DNA of 64,000 nucleotides from Acidiphilium sp. C61 (GTDB lineage: Bacteria > Pseudomonadota > Alphaproteobacteria > Acetobacterales > Acetobacteraceae): contig NZ_CACTIA010000005.1 of NCBI RefSeq assembly GCF_902712915.1, positions 558,001-622,000 on the forward strand, read 5' to 3'. This document shows, piece by piece, positions 3,017 to 47,849 of the stretch. The notes below the pieces were generated by a model, which made no database searches, was not told the origin of the DNA, and saw only the letters and a list, made by a program, of their open reading frames with translations. Position 1 is the first letter of the stretch. Every line of letters begins with the position of its first letter. The translations under genes and the position numbers were made by a program.

Positions 3017-3272
3017 GACCGACCCTCGCCGCAATCACGAGCGCGATCCCGAGAGGGGGCCGGAATGACGCACGGAATTCGCCTTGCGCCGGACATCGCC
3101 GCCGCCTCTCCGACACTGGTCGCTGGCTCGAGCATGACGCGCTTCCCTTCGTCCGCCGTGTCGGCGAACTGTCCAACCGGGCCGGAAGCTTGTCAATTCA
3201 CGTCTCCCGCAGCTTGCCTCTCGCCCCGCACGTCCGGTTTGATCCGGCTCAAGGCGGGCGGAGCCGGGAGGG
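3017..3272. other. Divergent intergenic region gdhB/ftsH, left part
   Basis: About 256 bases between the glutamate dehydrogenase start and the palindromic repeat, in a 396-base gap. It should hold the gdhB promoter, but I see no convincing -35/-10 pair, tRNA, riboswitch or small gene. No reading frame here has a ribosome binding site or family resemblance. Confidence 0.4.
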
Positions 3273-3380
3273 CTAGAGCTCTTTCCGATCCGGTTGGATC
3301 GGATGTAGTGCTCTATCATATTGATAAGCCGAGCATCTTTATCCGATCAGATGAGTCCATCTGATCGGATGATGCTCTAG
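3273..3380. repeat. Dispersed two-hairpin palindromic repeat, copy 1 (complete)
   Basis: Module A (3275-3314) pairs AGAGC with GCTCT and CCGATCC with GGATCGG. An AT-rich linker, ATCATATTGATAAGCC, follows. Module B (3331-3380) is a long hairpin with arms ATCCGATCAGAT and ATCTGATCGGAT around loop GAGTCC, closed by GAGCATC and GATGCTC. The element ends in CTAG. It lies about 30 bases upstream of ftsH, between divergent genes, whereas the other copies lie between convergent genes. Confidence 0.85.
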
Positions 3381-12598: not shown

Positions 12599-12666
12599 TG
12601 ATGCTCTGTTCGTCAATATGATAGAGCACTACATCCGATCCATTCGGATCAGATGTAGTGCTCCAG
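12597..12666. repeat. Dispersed palindromic repeat, copy 2 (module B truncated)
   Basis: In reverse orientation to copy 1. Only the module B edge (GATGATGCTCT, 12597-12607) remains, then linker TCGTCAATATGAT, then a complete module A (12623-12664) whose arms AGAGCACTACATC and GATGTAGTGCTCC pair well. Lies between convergent aarC and dnaN and overlaps the aarC stop codon. It could act as a bidirectional terminator. Confidence 0.8.
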
Positions 12667-26429: not shown

Positions 26430-26493
26430 TTTGGGCCTCGGTCTGTCTCTCCCTCCTATACCTGACGAACCCGCCGTGGTCGCGTCAATGGCC

Positions 26494-27404: not shown

Positions 27405-27510
27405 AGAGCACGTTCCGATCCGAAAGGATCGGATGTCGTGCTCTATCATATTGATAATTAGAGCATCTTTATCCGATCAGATGATTCTATCTGATCGGAT
27501 GATGCTCTAG
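27405..27510. repeat. Dispersed two-hairpin palindromic repeat, copy 3 (complete)
   Basis: Same orientation as copy 1. Module A 27405-27444 has stem AGAGCAC/GTGCTCT and inner CCGATCC-GAAA-GGATCGG. Linker ATCATATTGATAATT. Module B 27460-27510 has arms ATCCGATCAGAT/ATCTGATCGGAT, loop GATTCT and closing AGAGCATC/GATGCTCT. Its last 24 bases are the 3' end of egtD, including the stop codon. Lies between convergent genes. Confidence 0.88.
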
Positions 27511-28434
27511 GAGCTGGACGGAGAACAGGCGATCCGGATCCGTCCAGCTTTCGGCCACCAGCCAGCCCGCCTCGGCGGCCAGGGCGGCGAAGCGGGCCTC
27601 GGAAAACTTGTGGCTGTTCTCGGTATGGATCGTCTCGCCGGCAGCGAATTCGATCCTGCGCCCGGCAACGCGCACGCTCTGCGGAACCCGGCTTTCGAGA
27701 TGCATCTCGATCCGGCGGAACCTGTCGTTCCACACCGCCCGGTGGCGGAACAGCGCGGGGTCGAAATCGGCCTCGGCTTCCCGGTTCAGCCGGCTGAGAA
27801 TGTTGAGGTTGAACGCCGCCGTCACCCCCTCGGCGTCATCATAGGCCGGGATCAGGATATCCAGCGACTTCTCGAGATCCACCCCGATCAGCAGCGGCGC
27901 GCCGGGCCCGAGCGCCCCCCGCGCCCGCCCGAGAAACGCGACTGCTTCGTCGTGATCGAGATTGCCGATCGTCGATCCCGGAAAGAAGCCGAGACGCGGC
28001 ATCCCCGCGATCGCTGCCGGCAGGCGCACCGGGGCGAGAAAATCGGCGGCCACCGGATGCACCGCGATTGCGGGATGACGCCGCCGCATCCGCGCGGCGA
28101 GTGCGGCAAGCGCGGGGGCGGCAATGTCGATCGGGACATAGGCGGCGCTCTCCAGCGGGCCGAACAGGAATTCCGCCTTCCCTTCATCGCTGGCGCCATA
28201 TTCGACGAGCGCAGCACCGGGCTCCACCCACGCGCCAAGCGCCGCCGCAACCCGCGGCAGCAAGGCGCGCTCGGTGCGCGTCGGGTAATATTCCGCAAGC
28301 CTTGTGATCGCCCCGAACAGCGCGCAGCCGGGCTCGTCGTAGAACAGCTTGGGCGGAAGGCTCTTGCGCGGTGCCGTCAGCCCGGCGAGCGCCTCGGCAA
28401 CGATGTCGGTTTCAGGCGATGCCAGCCCCGACAC
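27487..28434 (-). CDS. egtD: L-histidine N(alpha)-methyltransferase EgtD
   Basis: 315 residues. Trimethylates histidine to hercynine, the first step of ergothioneine synthesis. Family segments: PPKLFYDEPGCALF near 23-36, TRTERALLP near 53, SAM site LVEYGASDEGKAEFL near 78, GFFPGSTIGNL near 150 and AFNLNILSRLNRE near 198. Lies 3 bases after egtB. The C-terminus LEHHPIR and the TAG stop are encoded by a dispersed repeat, so the natural end may have been replaced. Confidence 0.95.
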   Translation of the reverse strand: MSGLASPETDIVAEALAGLTAPRKSLPPKLFYDEPGCALFGAITRLAEYYPTRTERALLPRVAAALGAWVEPGAALVEYGASDEGKAEFLFGPLESAAYVPIDIAAPALAALAARMRRRHPAIAVHPVAADFLAPVRLPAAIAGMPRLGFFPGSTIGNLDHDEAVAFLGRARGALGPGAPLLIGVDLEKSLDILIPAYDDAEGVTAAFNLNILSRLNREAEADFDPALFRHRAVWNDRFRRIEMHLESRVPQSVRVAGRRIEFAAGETIHTENSHKFSEARFAALAAEAGWLVAESWTDPDRLFSVQLLEHHPIR

Positions 28435-28437
28435 CGT

Positions 28438-29616
28438 TCAGCTGTCCCGCGCGAGACGAAGTCCCGCGAACTGCCAGCGTTTGTCCGGATGAAAGAAGTT
28501 TCGATAGCTCCGCCGCGCATGCCCGTCCGGCGTTGCCATTGAAGATCCGCGCAGAACCATCTGATTTATCATGAATTTCCCATTATATTCACCGATCGCG
28601 CCGGCAACCGGGCGGAAGCGCGGATAGGGGCGATAGGCGCTTTCGGTCCATTGCCAGACATAGCCGGTCATCTCCGCGAGGCGCGGATCCGCCGCCGCGG
28701 CTTCCCATTCCGCCTCGGTGGGGAGTCGCGCGTCGCACCAGCGGGCATAGGCATCCGCCTCGTACCAGGAAACATGCATCACCGGCGCATCGGGATCGAG
28801 GCTCAGCACGCCTTCGGGGCCGAAGCTGGACCAGCCATCATCGTCGTACCGCCAGTAGAGCGGCGCCGCCCAGCCGCCGGCACTCGCCGCTGCCCAGCCG
28901 TCGGCCATCCACAACGTGCTGGTCCGGTAGCCGCCATCCGCCATGAAGGCGAGCCAGTCGCGGTTGCGCACCAGCCGGTCGGCAAGGCGATAGGGCTCCA
29001 GCCATACCTGGTGCCGCGGCCCCTCATTGTCGAAATGAAACCCACCCCCGGCGAACCCGATCTCGACGAGCCCGCCGGGACAATCGACGAAGCCGTCGCC
29101 GCCGGGCACCGCCGGGGTCCGGGCAAAATGCGGTATCGGCGCCGGGGCGAGGCGGTTCTGCGCGAAGGCATGGGTAATGTCGGTGATCAGCAGTTCCTGA
29201 TGCTGCTGCTCGTGATTGAGGCCCAGCACCACCAGATCGGCCGGCGCCCCGCCGCGTTCGATCAGGCCCTGCATCGCAGCGTCGACATGCGCGCGATAGG
29301 CGGTCACCCGCGCGCCATCGGGCCGGGTGATCAGCCCGCGCTCAGGGCGAGGCTGCCGTTCGCCGACCGAATCGTAATAGGAGTTGAACAGGAACTGGAA
29401 GGCCGGATCGAACACCCCATAGCCCGGGGCGTGGGGCAGCAGCACGAACTGCTCGAAAAACCAGGTCGTGTGCGCACGGTGCCATTTCGCCGGGCTCGCA
29501 TCCGCCATCGACTGGATGCACTGATCCTCGGCTGAAAGCGCCCGGGCAAGGTCTTCGGTGTGGGCACGTACGCGTTCATACGACCGGGCCAGGCCGGGCG
29601 GGGTGTAACCATCCAT
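28438..29616 (-). CDS. egtB: Ergothioneine biosynthesis protein EgtB
   Basis: 392 residues. Iron-dependent sulfoxide synthase joining hercynine to a thiol donor (gamma-glutamylcysteine or cysteine) with oxygen. N-terminal DinB-like domain supplies the iron ligands: His about 49 in RAHTTWF and His 135 and 139 in NHEQQHQE. C-terminal formylglycine-enzyme-like domain with PVMHVSWYEADAYARWC and LPTEAEWE. GGAGGG 6 bases before MDGYTPP decides the start. No egtA, egtC or egtE nearby, so a two-gene EgtB/EgtD pathway is likely. Confidence 0.95.
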   Translation of the reverse strand: MDGYTPPGLARSYERVRAHTEDLARALSAEDQCIQSMADASPAKWHRAHTTWFFEQFVLLPHAPGYGVFDPAFQFLFNSYYDSVGERQPRPERGLITRPDGARVTAYRAHVDAAMQGLIERGGAPADLVVLGLNHEQQHQELLITDITHAFAQNRLAPAPIPHFARTPAVPGGDGFVDCPGGLVEIGFAGGGFHFDNEGPRHQVWLEPYRLADRLVRNRDWLAFMADGGYRTSTLWMADGWAAASAGGWAAPLYWRYDDDGWSSFGPEGVLSLDPDAPVMHVSWYEADAYARWCDARLPTEAEWEAAAADPRLAEMTGYVWQWTESAYRPYPRFRPVAGAIGEYNGKFMINQMVLRGSSMATPDGHARRSYRNFFHPDKRWQFAGLRLARDS

Positions 29617-29698
29617 CGCAATCCCTCCGATGCCGTTCACAAGACATGGACGACCGGGGGCGGTTTGTCAGCGCTTTTTTGCCTCCGGCACGGCAAGT

Positions 29699-30718
29699 TC
29701 ACGCGACGCCCGGCACGCCTTTCGATGTCGAATATTCGAAATGCAGCGCCTGTTCGGGGTGAACGATCGGATGGATCGCGTGCGCCGCCATCGCCGCCTC
29801 GGAAAATCCCTGCAGGATCAGCTTCAGCTTGCCGGGATATTCGGCGACGTCGCCGATCGCGAAAATGCCGCGCGTGCTGGTCTCGCAGGTGGACGGGGTC
29901 ACGAGAACGTGATGGAGGGAAAGTTCGAGTCCCCAGGTCGCGACCGGGCCGAGATCGGTGGCGAGGCCGAAAAACGGCAGGAGGACATCCGCCTCGAGAT
30001 GCCGCGTCGCCCCGTCGAGATCGGCAACCTCGACCGTGTGCAGCGTGCCGTCGGCGCCATGCAGGGCGTGCAGCTGGTAGGGGATCACGAGATCGATTTC
30101 ACCCTCGGCCGCCGCCGCGGCGAGCTGGGCCGCACTTTCCGGCGCGGCGCGGAATTTCGCCCGCCGATGCGCCACGGCGATGCTCGCGGCGATGCCCCGC
30201 AGGGCAAGCGCCCAATCCACCGCCGAATCGCCGCCACCGGCGATCACCACCCGCTTGCCGCGCAGCGCCTCGCGCCGCTTCACGTAATATTGCACCGCAC
30301 CGCTCGCCTCGTAGGCGGCCAGCCCGGCAAGGGGCGGGCGATTCGGGCCGAACGCGCCGGCACCGGCGGCGATGATGATCGCCTTGGCGCGGACAAGATC
30401 GCCCTGGTCGGTGCCGATGGTGAAATCGCCGCAGGCGCCGGAAATCGCCGTCACCAGCCGGCCGAGCAGACGCGGCGCGGCAAAGGGGGCGATCTGCCGC
30501 TCCAGATTCTCGATCAGCCCCGCCGCCTCGATCGCCGGCAGGGCGGGGATGTCGTAGATCGGTTTCTCCGGGTAGAGCGCGGCGCACTGGCCGCCCACCT
30601 CGCCCAGCGCATCGATCAGCACGGCGCCGAGTTTCAGCATCCCGCACTCGAAGACGGCGAACAGGCCCGCCGGACCCGCGCCAATGATGGCCACATCTGT
30701 GGTGATCGTCTCTGCCAT
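29699..30718 (-). CDS. Ferredoxin/flavodoxin-NADP+ reductase, thioredoxin-reductase-like
   Basis: 339 residues. FAD site GAGPAG (13-18) and NADPH site GGGDSAVDWA near 170. It lacks the CxxC redox pair of thioredoxin reductase, which is why it belongs to the YumC-type ferredoxin-NADP reductase group. The late motif IFAIGDVAEYPGKLKLILQG fits FAD binding. Upstream of egtB on the same strand with an 82-base gap; could supply electrons, but no ferredoxin gene is adjacent. Divergent from tsaE. Confidence 0.9.
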   Translation of the reverse strand: MAETITTDVAIIGAGPAGLFAVFECGMLKLGAVLIDALGEVGGQCAALYPEKPIYDIPALPAIEAAGLIENLERQIAPFAAPRLLGRLVTAISGACGDFTIGTDQGDLVRAKAIIIAAGAGAFGPNRPPLAGLAAYEASGAVQYYVKRREALRGKRVVIAGGGDSAVDWALALRGIAASIAVAHRRAKFRAAPESAAQLAAAAAEGEIDLVIPYQLHALHGADGTLHTVEVADLDGATRHLEADVLLPFFGLATDLGPVATWGLELSLHHVLVTPSTCETSTRGIFAIGDVAEYPGKLKLILQGFSEAAMAAHAIHPIVHPEQALHFEYSTSKGVPGVA

Positions 30719-30787
30719 GCCCCATGCGTAGCCGAAACCGCGCGCGGGTCAACTTGCAAAGACCGGCTGATCGGGCAGGATCGAGCA

Positions 30788-31237
30788 ATGGGGATTCGAA
30801 CGATATCGCTCAGCGGCGAGGACGCCACCGCGGCGCTGGCGCGGCAACTGGCCGCACATGCGCGCGCCGGTGACGCTTTCCTGCTCTCGGGCCCGCTTGG
30901 CGCCGGGAAATCGACCCTTGCCCGCGCCTTCATCCGCGCCCGCGCCAATGATGCCACGCTCGACGTGCCGAGCCCGAGCTTCACCCTGGTGCAGACTTAT
31001 GAACTTGATCCGCCGGTGTCACATTTCGACCTCTGGCGCCTCGGCGGCCCGGAGGATGTCGCCGAACTCGGGCTGGATGCGGCCCTAGCCGGCATTGTCC
31101 TGATTGAGTGGCCCGACCGGCTCGGCCCGCTCGCGCCTCATGAGGCTCTGGCGATCGCGCTCGATTGGGACGAGGGCAATCACCGCACTGCAACGATCCG
31201 TGGCCCAGATGCCCTGCTCGAAAGATTTCTGCCATGA
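30788..31237 (+). CDS. tsaE: tRNA threonylcarbamoyladenosine biosynthesis ATPase TsaE
   Basis: 149 residues. ATPase partner of TsaD/TsaB for the t6A37 tRNA modification. Walker A GPLGAGKST (35-43), PSPSFTLVQTYE (about 62-73) and HFDLWRLG (about 80) are the family signature; LIEWPDRL follows near 108. Translationally coupled (ATGA) to addB. The kinase and nucleotidyltransferase genes often found between tsaE and addB in alphaproteobacteria are absent. Confidence 0.95.
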   Translation: MGIRTISLSGEDATAALARQLAAHARAGDAFLLSGPLGAGKSTLARAFIRARANDATLDVPSPSFTLVQTYELDPPVSHFDLWRLGGPEDVAELGLDAALAGIVLIEWPDRLGPLAPHEALAIALDWDEGNHRTATIRGPDALLERFLP

Positions 31238-34202
31238 TCCCCAAGGTCCGGTTCGTCGGCGCCGATCGCCCGTTCCTGCTTGAGCTTGCCCGCGCCTGGC
31301 TGGAGACGGCGGCGCATGCCGGCCGCGACCCGGCCGATGGCGTGCTGTTCCTGCCCACCCGCCGCGCCGCCCGCGCCGCCGCCGCCGCCTTTCTCGAAGC
31401 GAAAGGCGGGCCCCTGATCATGCCCCGCATCGCCGCGATCGGGGCGGCGGACGAGGCCGCCCTCGGCATCCTCGCCGGGCTCGACCTGCCGCCGGCGATC
31501 GCCGCAGAGGAGCGCCGCACCATCCTCGCCCGGCTGATCCTGAGCATGGGCGGGCGCGACGGCGCGCCGACCACCCTCGCCGCCGCGCTGCTGCTCGCCG
31601 ACGACCTTGCCCTCCTGCTCGACACCGCCGCCCAGGCCGAGATCGAGCTTGCCGACACGCTGCCGGGAATCGTGGCACCCGAACTCGCCGAACACTGGCA
31701 GCGCACGCTCGATTTCCTGTCGATCGTCACGCGCGCATGGCCCACGATCCTTGCCGAGCGCGGCGCGGTCGATCCGGCGGTGCGCCAGCGGATGCTGCTC
31801 GATGCGCAAGCCGAGCGCTGGCGCCTGGCACCGCCGTCGCACCCGGTCTGGCTCGCCGGGCTTGCCGCGGCACCGCCCGCCCTGTCGCGCCTCGCGCGTG
31901 TCGTCGCCAGTCTGGACCAGGGCTGCGTGGTGCTGCCCGGCTTCGATCCCGACCTGCCGGACGAGGCATGGTCGATGCTCGATCGCACGCCGTCCCATCC
32001 CCAGGCCGGATTCCGCCGCCTCGCCGAGGCGATCGGTGTGCAGCGCGCGGAAATCCATCCCCTGCACGCCCCCCTGGGCGCCCCCCTGCACGCCCCCCTG
32101 GGCGCCCCCCTGCCCCCCCCCTGGGCACCGGGGAGACGACCGGCCGGGCGGGCCGGATCGCGCTGCTCCGCGATGCGTTCCTGCCGATTCCGCCCGCGGC
32201 GGAGGGCGTAGCGGCGGCGGATGACGGGCTCTGGCGACTTGATGCTGCCGATGAACAGGACGAAGCGCGGGCCATCGCGCTCACCCTCCGCGATGCGCTG
32301 GAAACGCCGGGGCGCGATGCGGCGCTGGTCACGCCGGATCGCGGGCTGGCCCTGCGCGTGGCCGCCGAGCTCGAACGGCTCGGCATCCGCGCCGAAGACA
32401 GCGCGGGCGAACGCCTCGCCGACACGCCGCCGGCAATCGTGCTGCGCCTGCTCGCCACCTGCGTCGAGAGCGGCTACGACGCCGTGCCCCTGCTCGCGCT
32501 GCTGAAACATCCGCTGGTGACGGCCGGTCAGCCGCAGGGGCGGTGCCGCGCCCTCGCCCGCCGGCTCGACCTGCTGCTCCGCCGCGCCCTGCCCGGCCCC
32601 GGCTTCGCGGCCATGCTCCACGCCGCCGATCACGAGGCCGCGCACGAGGCAGCGCCGGATGATCCGCTGCCTTCCTTCCTCGCCGATCTGCAGCTTCGCC
32701 TCCGGCCGATATCGTCCCGCCCGGCGAGCCTGGCGCCGGCAACCCTTCTCGCGGGGCTGATCGCGGCGACGGAAGCGATCACCGACGATCTCTGGGCCGG
32801 CGAGGCCGGGGCAGCGCTATCCGAGCATCTGGCCATCCAGCTCGCGGCACTCGACGGCCTGCCGGATGTCCAACCGGCGGAACTCGTCCCGCTGCTCGAC
32901 GCGGTGCTGGGCAGTGCCCGGCTGCGGCGCCCGCGCGCGCGCGACGCGAACCCGCGGGTCGCCATCTGGGGCATGATGGAGGCGCGGCTGCAGCGGGTCG
33001 ACACGCTGGTTCTCGGCGGCATGGTCGAGGGCGTGTTTCCCGCGGAACCCGATCCAGGGCCCTGGCTGTCCCGGCCGATGCGGCGCGCCGCCGGCCTACC
33101 GGACGATGCCGAGAAGATCGGTGAGGCGGCACACGATCTCGGCATCCTGATCGGCGCGTGCGACGAGGTGGTGCTGTCGGCGCCGCGCCGGCGCGGCCGC
33201 GCCCCGGCGGTGCCCTCGCGCTTTCTGGCGCGAATCGACCTCGGGCTGCGGGGGAAAGGCGGCGTGTTGCGATCACACCCGGCGCGCCAATGGTCCGCCA
33301 GGCTGGACCAGCCCGGCAGCCCGACGCCCGGCAGCCCGACGCCCCGCCGCACGCGGCCGGAGCCGCGCCCGCCGGCGCATGCAAGGCCATCCAGCTACTC
33401 GATCTCGAAGATCACGACACTGCTCGCCGATCCCTACGCCATCTATGCCAGCGAGGTGCTGAAACTGCGCCCGCTCAACCCGCTGCAAGCCGAGACCGAC
33501 GCCGCGATTTTCGGCACCATCACGCATGATGCGCTGATGGAGGTGGCATGCTCGCCGGGCTGGGCCAGGGCAGAGGACGCACCGCGCCGGCTCGCCCACG
33601 CCTTCGCCACCGCCTTGCGCGCGCGGCGCCTGCGCCGGGCCCTCGAGGCGTTCTGGCTGGTCAGGCTGGAACGCATCGCCGGCTGGATCGTCGAGATCGA
33701 GCGCGCGCGGCTCGTCGAAAAGGGCGAGGCGGACGATATCAAGGTGGAACGGCCCGGCGCCTGGCGGTTCGGCCGGTTCACCGTCGATGGCCGCGCCGAC
33801 CGCATCGAGCGGCGAGGCGATACGCTTGCGATCATCGACTACAAGACCGGCAGCCCCCCTACCGACCGGGCGGTGGAGCAGGGCAAGGCACCGCAGCTGC
33901 CGATCGAGGCGGTGATCGCCGAAGCGGGCGGCTTCCCCGGTTTCGCCGGCAAGGTCGCCGAACTCGCCTATTGGAAACTGTCCGGCGGGGCGACCGAGGG
34001 CGAGACCAGGGCCTTGTTCGGGAACAAGGCCGAATCGCTCGATCAGGTGATCGAGGCGGCGCGCACGCAGATCCCCCCGCTGCTCGCCCATTACGCCGAT
34101 CCCGCGACACCGTTTCTCGACGCGCCACATCCCGGCCGCAAACCCAAGGATCAACCCTACGCCGGCATATCCCGCCGCGCCGAATGGCAGGAGGACGCAT
34201 GA
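31234..34202 (+). CDS. addB: Double-strand break repair protein AddB, frameshifted at a C9 tract
   Basis: Subunit of the AddAB helicase-nuclease that resects double-strand breaks for RecA. Two frames cover the gene. The first runs 31234 to a TAG at 32209-32211 (325 residues, UvrD-like N-terminal part beginning MIPKVRFVGADRPFLLE). The second continues to 34202 with the helicase-like core (LVLGGMVEGVFPAE near 33005) and the C-terminal PD-(D/E)XK nuclease (DGRADRIE and IIDYKTG near 33787-33848). The switch lies in C9 at 32113-32121; ten Cs would give one frame of about 989 residues, normal for AddB. A real frameshift, slippage or a sequencing error cannot be separated here. Coupled to tsaE and addA. 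Confidence 0.88.
32065..32123. repeat. 12-base tandem repeat inside addB carrying the frameshift
   Basis: Four perfect-length 12-mers, alternating CACGCCCCCCTG and GGCGCCCCCCTG (two 24-base units, 32065-32088 and 32089-32112), encode HAPLGAPL twice. A fifth unit, CCCCCCCCCTG (32113-32123), is 11 bases long. That missing base is exactly what breaks the addB frame. Confidence 0.9.
33312..33341. repeat. Two-copy 15-base repeat in addB interdomain linker
   Basis: The 15-mer GGCAGCCCGACGCCC occurs twice in tandem, encoding GSPTP twice, in a Pro/Ser-rich linker just before the nuclease domain. It keeps the frame. Confidence 0.65.
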
Positions 34203-37200
34203 GCGACGCCATCGCAGTGGCCGAGGCAGCGCAGCGCGCGGCCTCCGACCCATCGGTTTCGGCCTTCGTCGGCGCCTCGGCGGGATCGGGCAAGACCAAG
34301 CTGCTGACCGACCGGCTGCTGCGGCTGATGCTTTCCGGCGCACCGCCCAGCCGCATCCTGTGCCTCACCTTCACCCGCGCGGCGGCCGCGGAGATGGCGA
34401 TCCGCCTGCGCCGGCGGCTCGGCGACTGGGCCATTGCGACGGATTCCCGGCTCGATGCCGATCTCGCGGCACTCGACATGCCGACCGATACCGCGACGCG
34501 GCAGCGGGCGCGGATGCTGTTCGGCCAGGTGCTCGACCTGCCGGGCGGCATGCGGATCGACACGGTCCACGCTTTTTGTCAGTCGTTGCTGCGCCGGTTT
34601 CCGCTGGAGGCGCAGATCTCGCCGCATTTCGCCGTCGCCGACGAGGCCGAAGCCGCCAGCCGCCGCCGCGCCGCGCGCGAGGCCGTACTGGGCGATGACA
34701 GCCGCACGGCCGAAGCCGCACTCAGGCTTCTCGCGGGGCAGATTTCGGAAACCGATTTCGCCGGCCTGACCGACCGGATGCTGACCGACGCCCAGGCGAG
34801 GCTGGCGAAGCTCGCATCCCGCTACGAAACCGTCGGCGGCATCGCCGCCATGCAGGCGGCGGCGCTCGATGCCCCCGAAGCCGACGAGGACGCGATCCTG
34901 CTCTCGATCGTCGAATTCGACGATCGCAACATCCGCGCCACTCTTCGCGCGATGAGCGAGCGCAGCTCGGACAAGGCGCGGGAAAAGGCCACCGCCCTGC
35001 TAGCCTGGCTGGACCTGCCGCCAGCGCAGCGGGTTGCCCGGCTCGATATCTGGCGGGATGGATTTTTCACCGGCGCCGGCGCACCGCGCGCGATGACGAC
35101 GCTGTTGAGCAAGGCGCTGGATGCCGCGGAGCCGGCACTGCGGACATCGATCGAGGCCGAACAGGCACGGCTGCTGCGGATGATGGACCGTCTCGCAGCG
35201 CGGCGCCTCGCCGATCTTTCCGCCGCCCTCGCCCGGCTCGCGCTGCCGATCCACGCCGCAGAACAGGGAGCGAAACAGCTCAATGCGCGGTTCGACTATG
35301 CCGACCTGATCGCCCGCGCCGCACAGCTTCTGGTCGATCCCGGTGCCGCCTGGGTGCTCTACAAGCTCGATGGCGGGATCGATCATATCCTGCTCGATGA
35401 GGTGCAGGATATCGCACCGGCGCAATGGGCGGTGATCGACGCGATCGCGGCGGAGTTTTTCGCCGGCACGGGGACGCGGCCCGATGGGATGCGCACGGTT
35501 TTCGCGGTCGGCGACCGGAAACAGTCGATCTACTCCTTCCAGGGCGCCGACCTCGCGAGTTTCGACGCCTGGCGGGCGGGCATCGGGGCCCGTGTATCCG
35601 CCGCCGGGGCGCGCTGGCATGAAGGCAGCCTCGCCACCTCGTTCCGGTCCACGGCGCCGGTTCTCGCCTTGGTGGACAAGGTGTTCGAGAGCGGGCCGGC
35701 GCGCGCCGGCGTGGTCATGCCCGGCGAGACGCTCGCGCATGGCGCAAGCCGCGCCGGACAGGCCGGCTCGGTGTCGCTGTGGCCACTGGTTGCGGCCGAT
35801 CCCGATCCCGATCTGCCGCCCTGGGCGCCGGCAGAGACCTATGCCGAACAGGCCTCGGCGCGGCGGCGGCTCGCCCGGGCGGTGGCCGGATGGATCAAGG
35901 CCAATATCGGCACGATGCGGCTTGAGTCGCGCGGGCGCATGCTCGCCGCCGGCGATGTCTTGATCCTGGTCAGGCAGCGCAACGAATTCGGCATCGCCCT
36001 CACCCGCGCGCTGAAGGAGTACAATGTCGAGGTTGCCGGGCTCGACCGCATGGTGCTGACCGAAACCCGCGCCGTGGCCGACCTCATTGCGCTGGCCCGC
36101 GCCGTGCTGCTGCCGCAGGACGATGTCGAACTCGCGACCGTGCTGGCAAGCCCGCTTGGCGGCCTGTCCGACGAGGAGCTGATGCGGCTTGCGCTGGGCC
36201 GCAAGACCTCGCTGCGCGATACGCTGTTCGCCCGCGCCGACGAGTGCGCCGCCTTCGCCCAGGCGCGTGATCTGATCGCCGAAGCGCAGGCGCGGGCTGA
36301 TTTCGTCACCCCCTACCGCTTCTTTGCCGAAGTGCTCGGGCCGATGGGCGGCCGGGCCCGGCTGCTCGCCCGGCTCGGGCCGGAAGCCGCCGAGCCGCTC
36401 GACGAACTGCTCGCCACCGCGCTCGACTATGGCGCGCGCGAGGCGCCGAGCCTGCAGGGCTTCCTCGCCGCGCTCGATGCCACCGCGGCCGAGGTCAAGC
36501 GCGAGGCGGAGGCAGCCGGCAACGCGGTGCGGCTGATGACCGTTCACGGCGCGAAGGGCCTGCAGGCGCCGCTGGTCATCCTGCCGGATACGACCGGACA
36601 GCCGGGGAAAGAGGCGCGCGAGATGATCCACTGGCTCGAAGCGCCGCAGGATGGCGGCGAGGTACCCATCTTCTGCCCCCGCGCCGACATGCGCAGCGCC
36701 GCGGTGCAACAGGCGCTTGCCCGGAGTGCGGCCCGCGCCGCCGAGGAATATAACCGGCTGCTCTACGTGGCGCTGACCCGCGCCGAGGACCATCTGGTCG
36801 TCTGCGGCGCGGCGCCGAAGACCAAGCTGCCGGACTCATGCTGGTACGAGAGCGTGCGCGCAGGTTTCGCCCGGCTCGACGGCGTTGCCGACCGCGCGGC
36901 GGAAGTGCCGCTGGAAGGCAGCATCCTCTGCCTCGAAACCGCGCAGACGGCAGCGCCGGACCGGACCGCCGCCGTCGCCACGACGGTCGCATCGCCATTG
37001 CCGCACTGGATCGGCCCGGAAACCGGCTGGCGCGCGGCGCCGCCGCCCGAGCCCAAGCGCCGGATCGACCGCCTGGTGCCGAGCCGCAGCGCCGAAGGCG
37101 AAAGCACGGGCCTAGCCGCTTCCTCGCCGCTGGCGGGCCGCGAAACCGGCCGCGCCGCCGGTCTTGCACGCGGCCGGCTGATCCATGCGCTGTTGCAGCA

Positions 37201-37672
37201 TCTGCCCGATCTTGCGCTCGCCGACCGGCACGAAGCCGCACGCCGCTACCTGGCGCAGCCCGCTCACGACCTCGACGCCGCCGAACAATCCGCGCTGATC
37301 GAGGCGGTTTTCGGAGTGCTCGACCATCCTGAGCTGACGCCGCTGTTCGGCCCCGCCTCGCGCGCCGAGGCGCCCGTGGCCGGTATTGTCGGCGGCGTCG
37401 AAATTGGCGGGCTGATCGACCGGCTCGCCGTGCTGCCTGACCGGGTGCTTGTCGCCGACTACAAGACCGACCGCCGGCCGCCGGACGATCCGGCTGGAAT
37501 CCCCGAGGCCTATGCGGCGCAGCTCGCCGCCTATGTCGCGGTGCTCGGCGGAATATATCCCGATCGGCGGATCGATGCGGTGCTGGTCTGGACATCGCAA
37601 GCCCGTGTCATGCCGGTCCCCGCCGCGATGCTGGCCCGGCATGCGCCGAAGCAGGACCAGCCATCCGCTTGA
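34199..37672 (+). CDS. addA: Double-strand break repair helicase AddA
   Basis: 1157 residues. UvrD-type helicase plus nuclease subunit of AddAB. Walker A ASAGSGKT (26-33), motif Ia [11 protein letters not shown] near 58, motif [10 protein letters not shown] near 400, motif [16 protein letters not shown] near 438, motif [13 protein letters not shown] near 782 and motif [13 protein letters not shown] near 855. C-terminal PD-(D/E)XK nuclease with VADYKTD near 1083. AGGAGG precedes the ATG, whose A overlaps the addB stop. Upstream in-frame sequence belongs to addB, so the longer reading frame is not used. Confidence 0.96.
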
Positions 37673-37730
37673 TCGTCACGGGGCAAGACGCCATTCTCTT
37701 CTCAAACGCATCGCTTCAAGGAGCATTATC

Positions 37731-38057
37731 ATGGGTGCAGCCACGAAAGCCGTGTCTGACGCGGAATTTTCCAACTCGGTTCTCGACTCGAAGGAGCCGG
37801 TTCTTGTCGATTTCTGGGCAGAATGGTGCGGTCCCTGCAAGATCATCGGACCGTCGCTGGAAGAACTCGGCAGCGAATATGCCGGGCGGGTTACCGTCGC
37901 CAAGGTGAATATCGACGAGAACCCGATGACCCCGACCCAGTATGGGGTGCGTGGCATCCCGACCCTGATCCTGTTCAAGGATGGCAAGCCGGCGGCACAG
38001 CATGTCGGCGCCGCGCCGAAAAGCGTGCTGAAGGCCTGGCTCGACAAAAACATCTGA
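37731..38057 (+). CDS. trxA: Thioredoxin
   Basis: 108 residues, standard thioredoxin 1 length. Active site WCGPC (32-36) and the cis-proline segment GIPTLILF (about 73-80). AAGGAG 8 bases before the ATG. The addA-trxA order is conserved in many alphaproteobacteria. Followed by a strong hairpin. Confidence 0.97.
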
Positions 38058-46834: not shown

Positions 46835-47752
46835 ATGGCACTAGAGCGGCATATCGAAGCTTTCCTTGAATCGATGGTTGCCGAGCGCGGGGCGGCGCAG
46901 AACACCGTTCTTGCCTATCAGGCCGATCTCGCCGATTTCGCCGCGTTCTGCGCCTCGCGCGGCAGTGGGCCGGCTGCCGCCGATGCCACGATCGTGACCG
47001 ACTATCTCGCCAGCCTTGCGGCCGCAGGGCTTTCCGCCCGCACCCAGGCCCGCCGTCTCTCGGCGCTGCGGCAGTTCCAGCGCTTCCTGCTGCGCGACGG
47101 CCAGCGCCACGACGACCCCACTTCCCTCACTTCCTCGCCCAAGCAGCCGCGGACGCTCCCGAAAACGATCAGCGAGGCGGAGGTGAGCGCTTTGCTCGCC
47201 GCGGCAGGCACACTCCCTGGCGCCTCGGGGCGAGTTGCGGAGGCAGGGCTGGAAATCCTGTATGCGACCGGAATGCGGATTTCGGAAATGCTGGAACTGC
47301 CCGCCCATGCGCTACCGCTGGATGGCAACATGCTGCTGATCCGCGGCAAGGGCGGACGCGAGCGGATCGTGCCGCTGTCCGCAGCGGCGCGAGATGCGGC
47401 GAAGACATTGCTCGACACCAACCCCGAGCGGCCGGCGCGCTACCTTTTTCCGGGCCGCCGCAAGGGCATGCCGATGACCCGACAGGCTTTCGCGCGCCTG
47501 CTCAAGCGGGTTGCCCTCGCGGCGGGGATCGATCCCGGCCGGCTTTCACCGCACGCGCTGCGTCATGCCTTTGCGACCCATCTTCTCGCCCACGGCGCTG
47601 ATCTGCGCAGCCTGCAGACGCTTCTCGGCCATGCCGATATCTCGACAACGCAGATCTACACGCATGTCCTCGCGGAGCGACTGCAAAAGCTCATGGAAGA
47701 GCACCACCCGATGGCCCGCGAGGCTTCCGGGCCCGCCGAACAGATCCCCTGA
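46835..47752 (+). CDS. xerD: Tyrosine recombinase XerD/XerC
   Basis: 305 residues. Site-specific recombinase that resolves chromosome dimers at dif with its partner. N-terminal SAM-like core-binding domain, then the catalytic set Arg148 (TGMRISE), Lys172 (GKGGRER), His240 and Arg243 (HALRHAF), His266 (GHADIST) and Tyr275 (QIYTHV). XerD is favoured over XerC by overall pattern, not proved. No phage genes nearby. Ends before a dispersed repeat. Confidence 0.92.
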   Translation: MALERHIEAFLESMVAERGAAQNTVLAYQADLADFAAFCASRGSGPAAADATIVTDYLASLAAAGLSARTQARRLSALRQFQRFLLRDGQRHDDPTSLTSSPKQPRTLPKTISEAEVSALLAAAGTLPGASGRVAEAGLEILYATGMRISEMLELPAHALPLDGNMLLIRGKGGRERIVPLSAAARDAAKTLLDTNPERPARYLFPGRRKGMPMTRQAFARLLKRVALAAGIDPGRLSPHALRHAFATHLLAHGADLRSLQTLLGHADISTTQIYTHVLAERLQKLMEEHHPMAREASGPAEQIP

Positions 47753-47756
47753 ACAG

Positions 47757-47846
47757 CTAGAGCATCATCCGATCGGGTAAAAATATTAATTTTGTCAATA
47801 TGATAGAACACGACATCCGATCCGAACGGATCGGAAAGTGCTCCAG
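47757..47846. repeat. Dispersed palindromic repeat, copy 4 (module B half)
   Basis: Reverse orientation, like copy 2. Half of module B (CTAGAGCATCATCCGATCGG) is followed by an AT-rich linker (AAATATTAATTTTGTCAATA) and a full module A (47805-47845) with inner arms CCGATCC-GAAC-GGATCGG. Lies 5 bases after the xerD stop and 4 bases before the flhG stop, between convergent genes. Confidence 0.82.
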
Positions 47847-47849
47847 CGC

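Follow-up and report, generated by a model that had tools for sequence, protein, structure and literature searches.

A tandem array with a nine-base C run in addB of Acidiphilium: a possible recent slip in a length-variable minisatellite

Slippage-prone repeats and loss of AddAB

Allele conversion through a 6-bp tandem repeat is described for mutL in Salmonella and E. coli, where, according to the accessible part of the article, the copy number is said to shift by slipped-strand mispairing, which inactivates the gene (PMC2955026). In Thermus thermophilus HB27, ppol mutants spontaneously lose AddAB, which the excerpted text attributes to a frameshift in addA or to a 13-kb deletion (PMC9751324). 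A literature survey by titles and abstract openings, with most subscription journals outside its scope, returned no report of slippage control of addB or recBCD; the consulted portions of a Wolbachia article (PMC4224334) contain no comparable tract, and those of a further article (PMC2831843) hold nothing on DNA repair genes.

The locus described here lies in a 64-kb stretch of Acidiphilium DNA (the window, i.e., the whole stretch analysed), in which addB is read in two frames. The N-terminal reading of 325 aa (31234-32211, plus strand) matches the NCBIfam profile addB_alphas (TIGR02786) at positions 5-300 with 227.2 bits, and the C-terminal part, in another frame (32130-34202, plus strand), matches positions 338-1024 with 497.1 bits (cut-off 486.5 bits) and carries the PD-(D/E)XK nuclease domain (PF12705); both C-terminal profile matches were obtained with the longer ORF 31737-34202, and the query made from this part has 690 aa. 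The family profile thus identifies the gene as addB, TIGR02786 being covered in two frames with addA adjoining. addA (34199-37672, plus strand) matches TIGR02784 with 1089.9 bits within ORF 33548-37672, and its ATG at 34199 overlaps the stop of addB, which ends at 34202. At the other side, the addB ATG at 31234 overlaps the stop of the tsaE ORF (29630-31237), which ends in a TsaE domain (30815-31187, plus strand; PF02367, residues 396-519), and a thioredoxin domain is encoded 3' of addA (37746-38048, plus strand; PF00085, residues 100-200 of ORF 37449-38057).

The addB array and its surroundings

The array occupies positions 32059-32129 (plus strand) and consists of 12-nt units in 24-nt pairs, which in codon register span 71 nt, one base less than six full units would. 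The first-pass annotation had used another register and proposed that four 12-mers (32065-32112) are followed by an 11-mer (32113-32123), composed of C9 and then TG, which throws addB out of frame; this description proved exact. The C9 run (32113-32121, plus strand) lies inside the array and is the point of frame loss, so that the window holds no continuous AddB reading frame: the frame opened by the ATG at 31234 is out of frame past the array and ends at 32211 after 325 aa, and the downstream AddB frame is open as far as 34202, its first ATG, GTG or TTG past the break being a GTG at 32358. As is typical of phase-variable loci, a slippage-prone simple repeat is located within the coding region. 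With a TRF score of 122, the array is at the top of 59 tandem-repeat rows in the window, which, together with C9, bears out the earlier suggestion of slippage-type DNA in addB.

C9 is the sole homopolymer of at least seven of any base in the window. In 60 simulations under a first-order Markov model, 0.88 runs of at least nine and 12.8 runs of at least seven were expected, against one observed in either case, so that base composition by itself would not render such a run rare, and 65 related loci (735,089 bases) contain 6 runs of at least nine and 99 of at least seven, hence a C9 run is uncommon, but not exceptional. What is notable is its position within the window's strongest tandem array, within addB.

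addB has three tandem repeats in one gene, the other two being a 15-nt repeat (33311-33344, plus strand), which is one unit longer, in frame, in the relative P0001, and a 12-nt duplication (32625-32655, plus strand), which is in frame and not present in the relatives P0134 or L001; both vary among close relatives by whole codons. In the structure model of an intact relative (P0002; mean pLDDT 88.3), the array site falls in a coil that links strand 274-276 to helix 286-295. The five best solved-structure matches of this model are B chains of AddAB structures, and a PDB sequence search with P0002 gave no matches. Among 110 full-length relatives, the segment around the site comprises 25-41 residues, with 30 residues in 66 of them. 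Extra residues should be tolerable in such a loop, so that repeat units could accumulate there.

Several features of the neighbourhood may be recorded in their own right. The tsaE ORF (plus strand) overlaps a minus-strand pyridine nucleotide-disulphide oxidoreductase gene (29699-30718), hence its upstream part is probably non-coding. At 27487-29640 on the minus strand are two adjoining genes, one with a match to a histidine-specific methyltransferase (PF10017) and the other with FGE-sulfatase and DinB_2 matches, which we take to be an EgtD/EgtB pair for ergothioneine synthesis. A dispersed repeat of ~106 bases, made up of two inverted-repeat modules, is found at 3272-3380, 27405-27510 and 47751-47847 (minus strand) and in part at 12600-12666; the copies are 80-90% alike, one copy is also present in the related stretch G001, and the repeat has the appearance of a small, palindromic intergenic element.

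Relatives, selection and sequence quality

The nearest of the 65 related loci, L001 (MAG SKS3.bin60), has a single unit at the array site and an open addB, its best segment being 88% identical to the C-terminal addB piece of the window; P0002-P0005 likewise are without the array. Closer sequences were found among proteins, namely P0001 (Acidiphilium sp., third-party MAG), which shares 98% identity with the C-terminal piece and represents a 13-sequence cluster of which one member was examined, as well as P0133 (Acidiphilium sp. 21-66-27) and P0134 (Acidiphilium sp. 21-68-69), which cover 18% of the addB N-terminal query with 97% and 95% identity, respectively. Read from protein, P0001 and P0133 have four units in frame (PLHA PLGA PLPP PLGT) and P0134 has three (PLRA PLCA PLRA). 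The unit series is therefore 1, 3, 4 and almost 6 among sequences otherwise 88-98% alike, and repeat length differs between close strains as in phase-variable loci, with the units of the relatives read from protein. The three- and four-unit alleles, set against almost six in the window, argue that the array is natural and length-variable. The comparison of repeat number between strains, which the first-pass annotation had recommended, thus came out in favour of variation between very close relatives (three, four and almost six units). As to frame, three alleles are in frame and the window has the only out-of-frame one seen, annotated pseudogenes being absent from the protein database searched. 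P0133 also differs from both P0001 and the window in that 28 residues are missing in frame ~130 residues past the array, which may be a genuine deletion or reflect a misjoined assembly.

The remainder of the gene is under purifying selection, like addA. Between the window and the genome of L001, dN/dS is 0.124 for the N-terminal part of addB (274 codons), 0.155 for the C-terminal part (680 codons) and 0.149 for addA (1140 codons). These values belong to a set of 21 segments, of which one (g60863) gave no result, two were odd and 18 lay between 0.037 and 0.167, the 18 being counted as given, so that some may not be true genes; the C-terminal part of addB and addA are at the high end of this range. 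The odd values were 0.70 for the tsaE ORF, which in its upstream part overlaps the minus-strand oxidoreductase gene, and 4.29 for a mechanical ORF that ends at 26462. When polarised with G010 as outgroup, the amino-acid changes found only in the window or only in G001 number 4 and 2 in the N-terminal part of addB, 20 and 19 in the C-terminal part and 31 and 21 in addA, and synonymous changes in the C-terminal part number 52 in the window and 40 in L001. Neither dN/dS nor the outgroup counts contain a sign of long-standing addB loss. Compared with P0001, the C-terminal piece has eight substitutions, six on the window side and two on the other, which may hint at relaxed constraint on the window addB, but is not significant (0.145, one-sided). 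The open frames and dN/dS agree with the first-pass annotation, by which the whole of addA and the remainder of addB are intact and under selection; the break should accordingly be recent, reversible or artefactual.

In all 65 related loci, addB is open over the entire region to which intact AddB queries match, and the identical comparison, when applied to the window, displayed the addB split. Nearly all of addB is present in 54 of these loci, two more span the array site and nine start past it, so that the site was tested in 56, none of which has a frame transition there, whereas programmed frameshifting would demand a conserved one. None of the 65 loci contains a 21-mer taken from the array, even with two mismatches allowed; in the genomes of 100 relatives the tract was absent from addB, and the two matches at two mismatches were not at an AddB gene. 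An exact-pattern scan of viral contigs likewise gave no matches. Among 22 proteins returned by the addB N-terminal query (candidates of ~179-569 aa, the 7993 best-sharing scored), P0133 and P0134 were the only ones of the same lineage, both in frame, and no second out-of-frame fragment of that lineage was present; a protein query of 101 residues around the break site gave no match, and annotated pseudogenes would be missed by either search. For a selected switch, the tract is commonly expected to persist over evolutionary time, and the array, being absent from L001, P0002-P0005 and 65/65 loci, is not conserved in this way.

The quality of the window was gauged against the collinear G001 stretch. 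Of its 67 mechanical ORFs, 12 had no match in the window and 55 were matched, 50 of them with >90% covered in one frame. The five flagged ORFs were addB, two truncated by an end of the window, one with a difference close to its end and one lying over the end of the thioredoxin gene and what follows it; of these, addB alone was matched in full by two adjacent pieces in different frames. As addB is the sole conserved gene that is split, general indel noise was ruled out for the window.

Competing explanations and known systems

The reading we favour, with a probability of a little under one half, is that a real, length-variable minisatellite lies in a tolerant AddB loop and that a recent one-base slip broke the frame of the window copy; an error of assembly or consensus calling there is nearly as likely. 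According to the favoured reading, a young 12/24-nt minisatellite would have grown inside addB of one Acidiphilium-like lineage, in a loop tolerating extra residues. Slipped-strand mispairing, the presumed mechanism behind the observed differences in allele length, would alter unit number and, in the C run, length by single bases; a slip in the C run is deduced by way of protein, since the in-frame alleles P0001, P0133 and P0134 were read as protein. In-frame alleles elsewhere would be expected if AddB is needed, and the window allele, one base off, would most likely represent a recent slip. AddB would then be truncated after its N-terminal part with loss of the nuclease domain, and ~2 kb would be left untranslated ahead of addA, whose start overlaps the addB stop, so that addA may be translated less owing to lost coupling. 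Cells with the off-frame allele would lack AddAB unless another slip, or recombination with an intact allele, restored it. The array would hence be a mutable site, and no evidence points to selection keeping it as a switch.

If the fault lies in the data, the array would be real and the one-base shortfall a consensus error in a repeat differing between co-occurring strains. The break falls exactly in the tandem array that holds the only long homopolymer of the window, every other allele seen is in frame, and the P0133 and P0134 contigs (1009 and 1069 bases) share both their start and their end residues, a pattern expected of assembly bubbles. The contigs of the three closest alleles, P0001, P0133 and P0134, all of the same lineage, begin just 5' of the array (30, 45 and 45 codons, respectively), a sign that assembly is difficult here; for this reason the real slip is put below one half and the consensus error is taken as a serious, if somewhat less probable, contender. 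Against it, no other conserved gene of the window is split, although the window has no other run of at least seven by which base-calling could be gauged. Far less probable is evolved phase variation, in which a tract maintained by selection would serve, through slippage in the array, as an on/off switch for AddAB. The slippage-prone anatomy and the difference in unit number between close relatives would suit it, as would the Thermus mutants, in which, by the excerpted text, AddAB loss is viable and raises transformation (PMC9751324). It is opposed by the single off state and by a tract missing from L001, P0002-P0005, 65/65 loci and addB of the 100 relatives' genomes. We consider it equally improbable that the array is a young contingency locus, in which slippage of units or single bases would leave some of the cells without AddAB and would be reversed by a slip or by recombination with an intact allele; if so, break repair and the handling of incoming DNA would be altered in off cells.

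The phase variation proposed by the first-pass annotation therefore holds in its slippage-type DNA, its variation in unit number and the intact rest of the gene, whereas the proposal of a switch is not supported: the out-of-frame state is seen in the window alone, and absence of the array from the nearest relatives (L001 and P0002-P0005) argues that no conserved switch is kept. Recoding, by which slippage during translation or transcription of the C run would yield some full-length AddB, is very improbable; C9 is formally slippery and the downstream part is still under selection, but none of the 56 related loci spanning the site has a frame transition, and bacterial RNA polymerase is weak at slippage in the accessible part of a study that tested A/T runs only (PMC6260861). 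Hardly more can be said for permanent loss of addB in the lineage, which draws on the 6/8 substitutions on the window side relative to P0001; six against two is not significant, the C-terminal part shows no window excess against L001 with outgroup G010 for amino-acid or synonymous changes, and a second lesion in addB was not found.

Were the slip both genuine and reversible, double-strand-break repair would have one of its core enzymes governed by slippage. As a single event, or as an artefact, it would instead be a warning that a housekeeping gene in good order can seem broken in large sequence collections when a short tandem array sits in a tolerant loop. By analogy, the addB array may work like other slippage-prone tracts, the nearest in kind being mutL repeat conversion as excerpted (PMC2955026). 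Both are short tandem repeats within a DNA-repair gene, yet the mutL repeat has, in the available text, a 6-bp unit, is common to Salmonella, Escherichia and Shigella, and changes in frame, its conversion having been tested in strains (PMC2955026), whereas the addB change is out of frame and known from sequence alone, and its array is found in one lineage. As in the homopolymer-tract phase variation of Neisseria, Helicobacter and others, the length of a coding-region homopolymer sets the frame; in the sources consulted, tract-length variation at those loci is seen in populations, in contrast to the one off state and the non-conserved tract of addB. The available part of the Thermus HB27 report shares with the window the loss of AddAB by frameshift, which the Thermus cells survive, but concerns laboratory mutants with an addA frameshift or the 13-kb deletion and describes no tandem array (PMC9751324), while in the window the lesion lies in the addB array.
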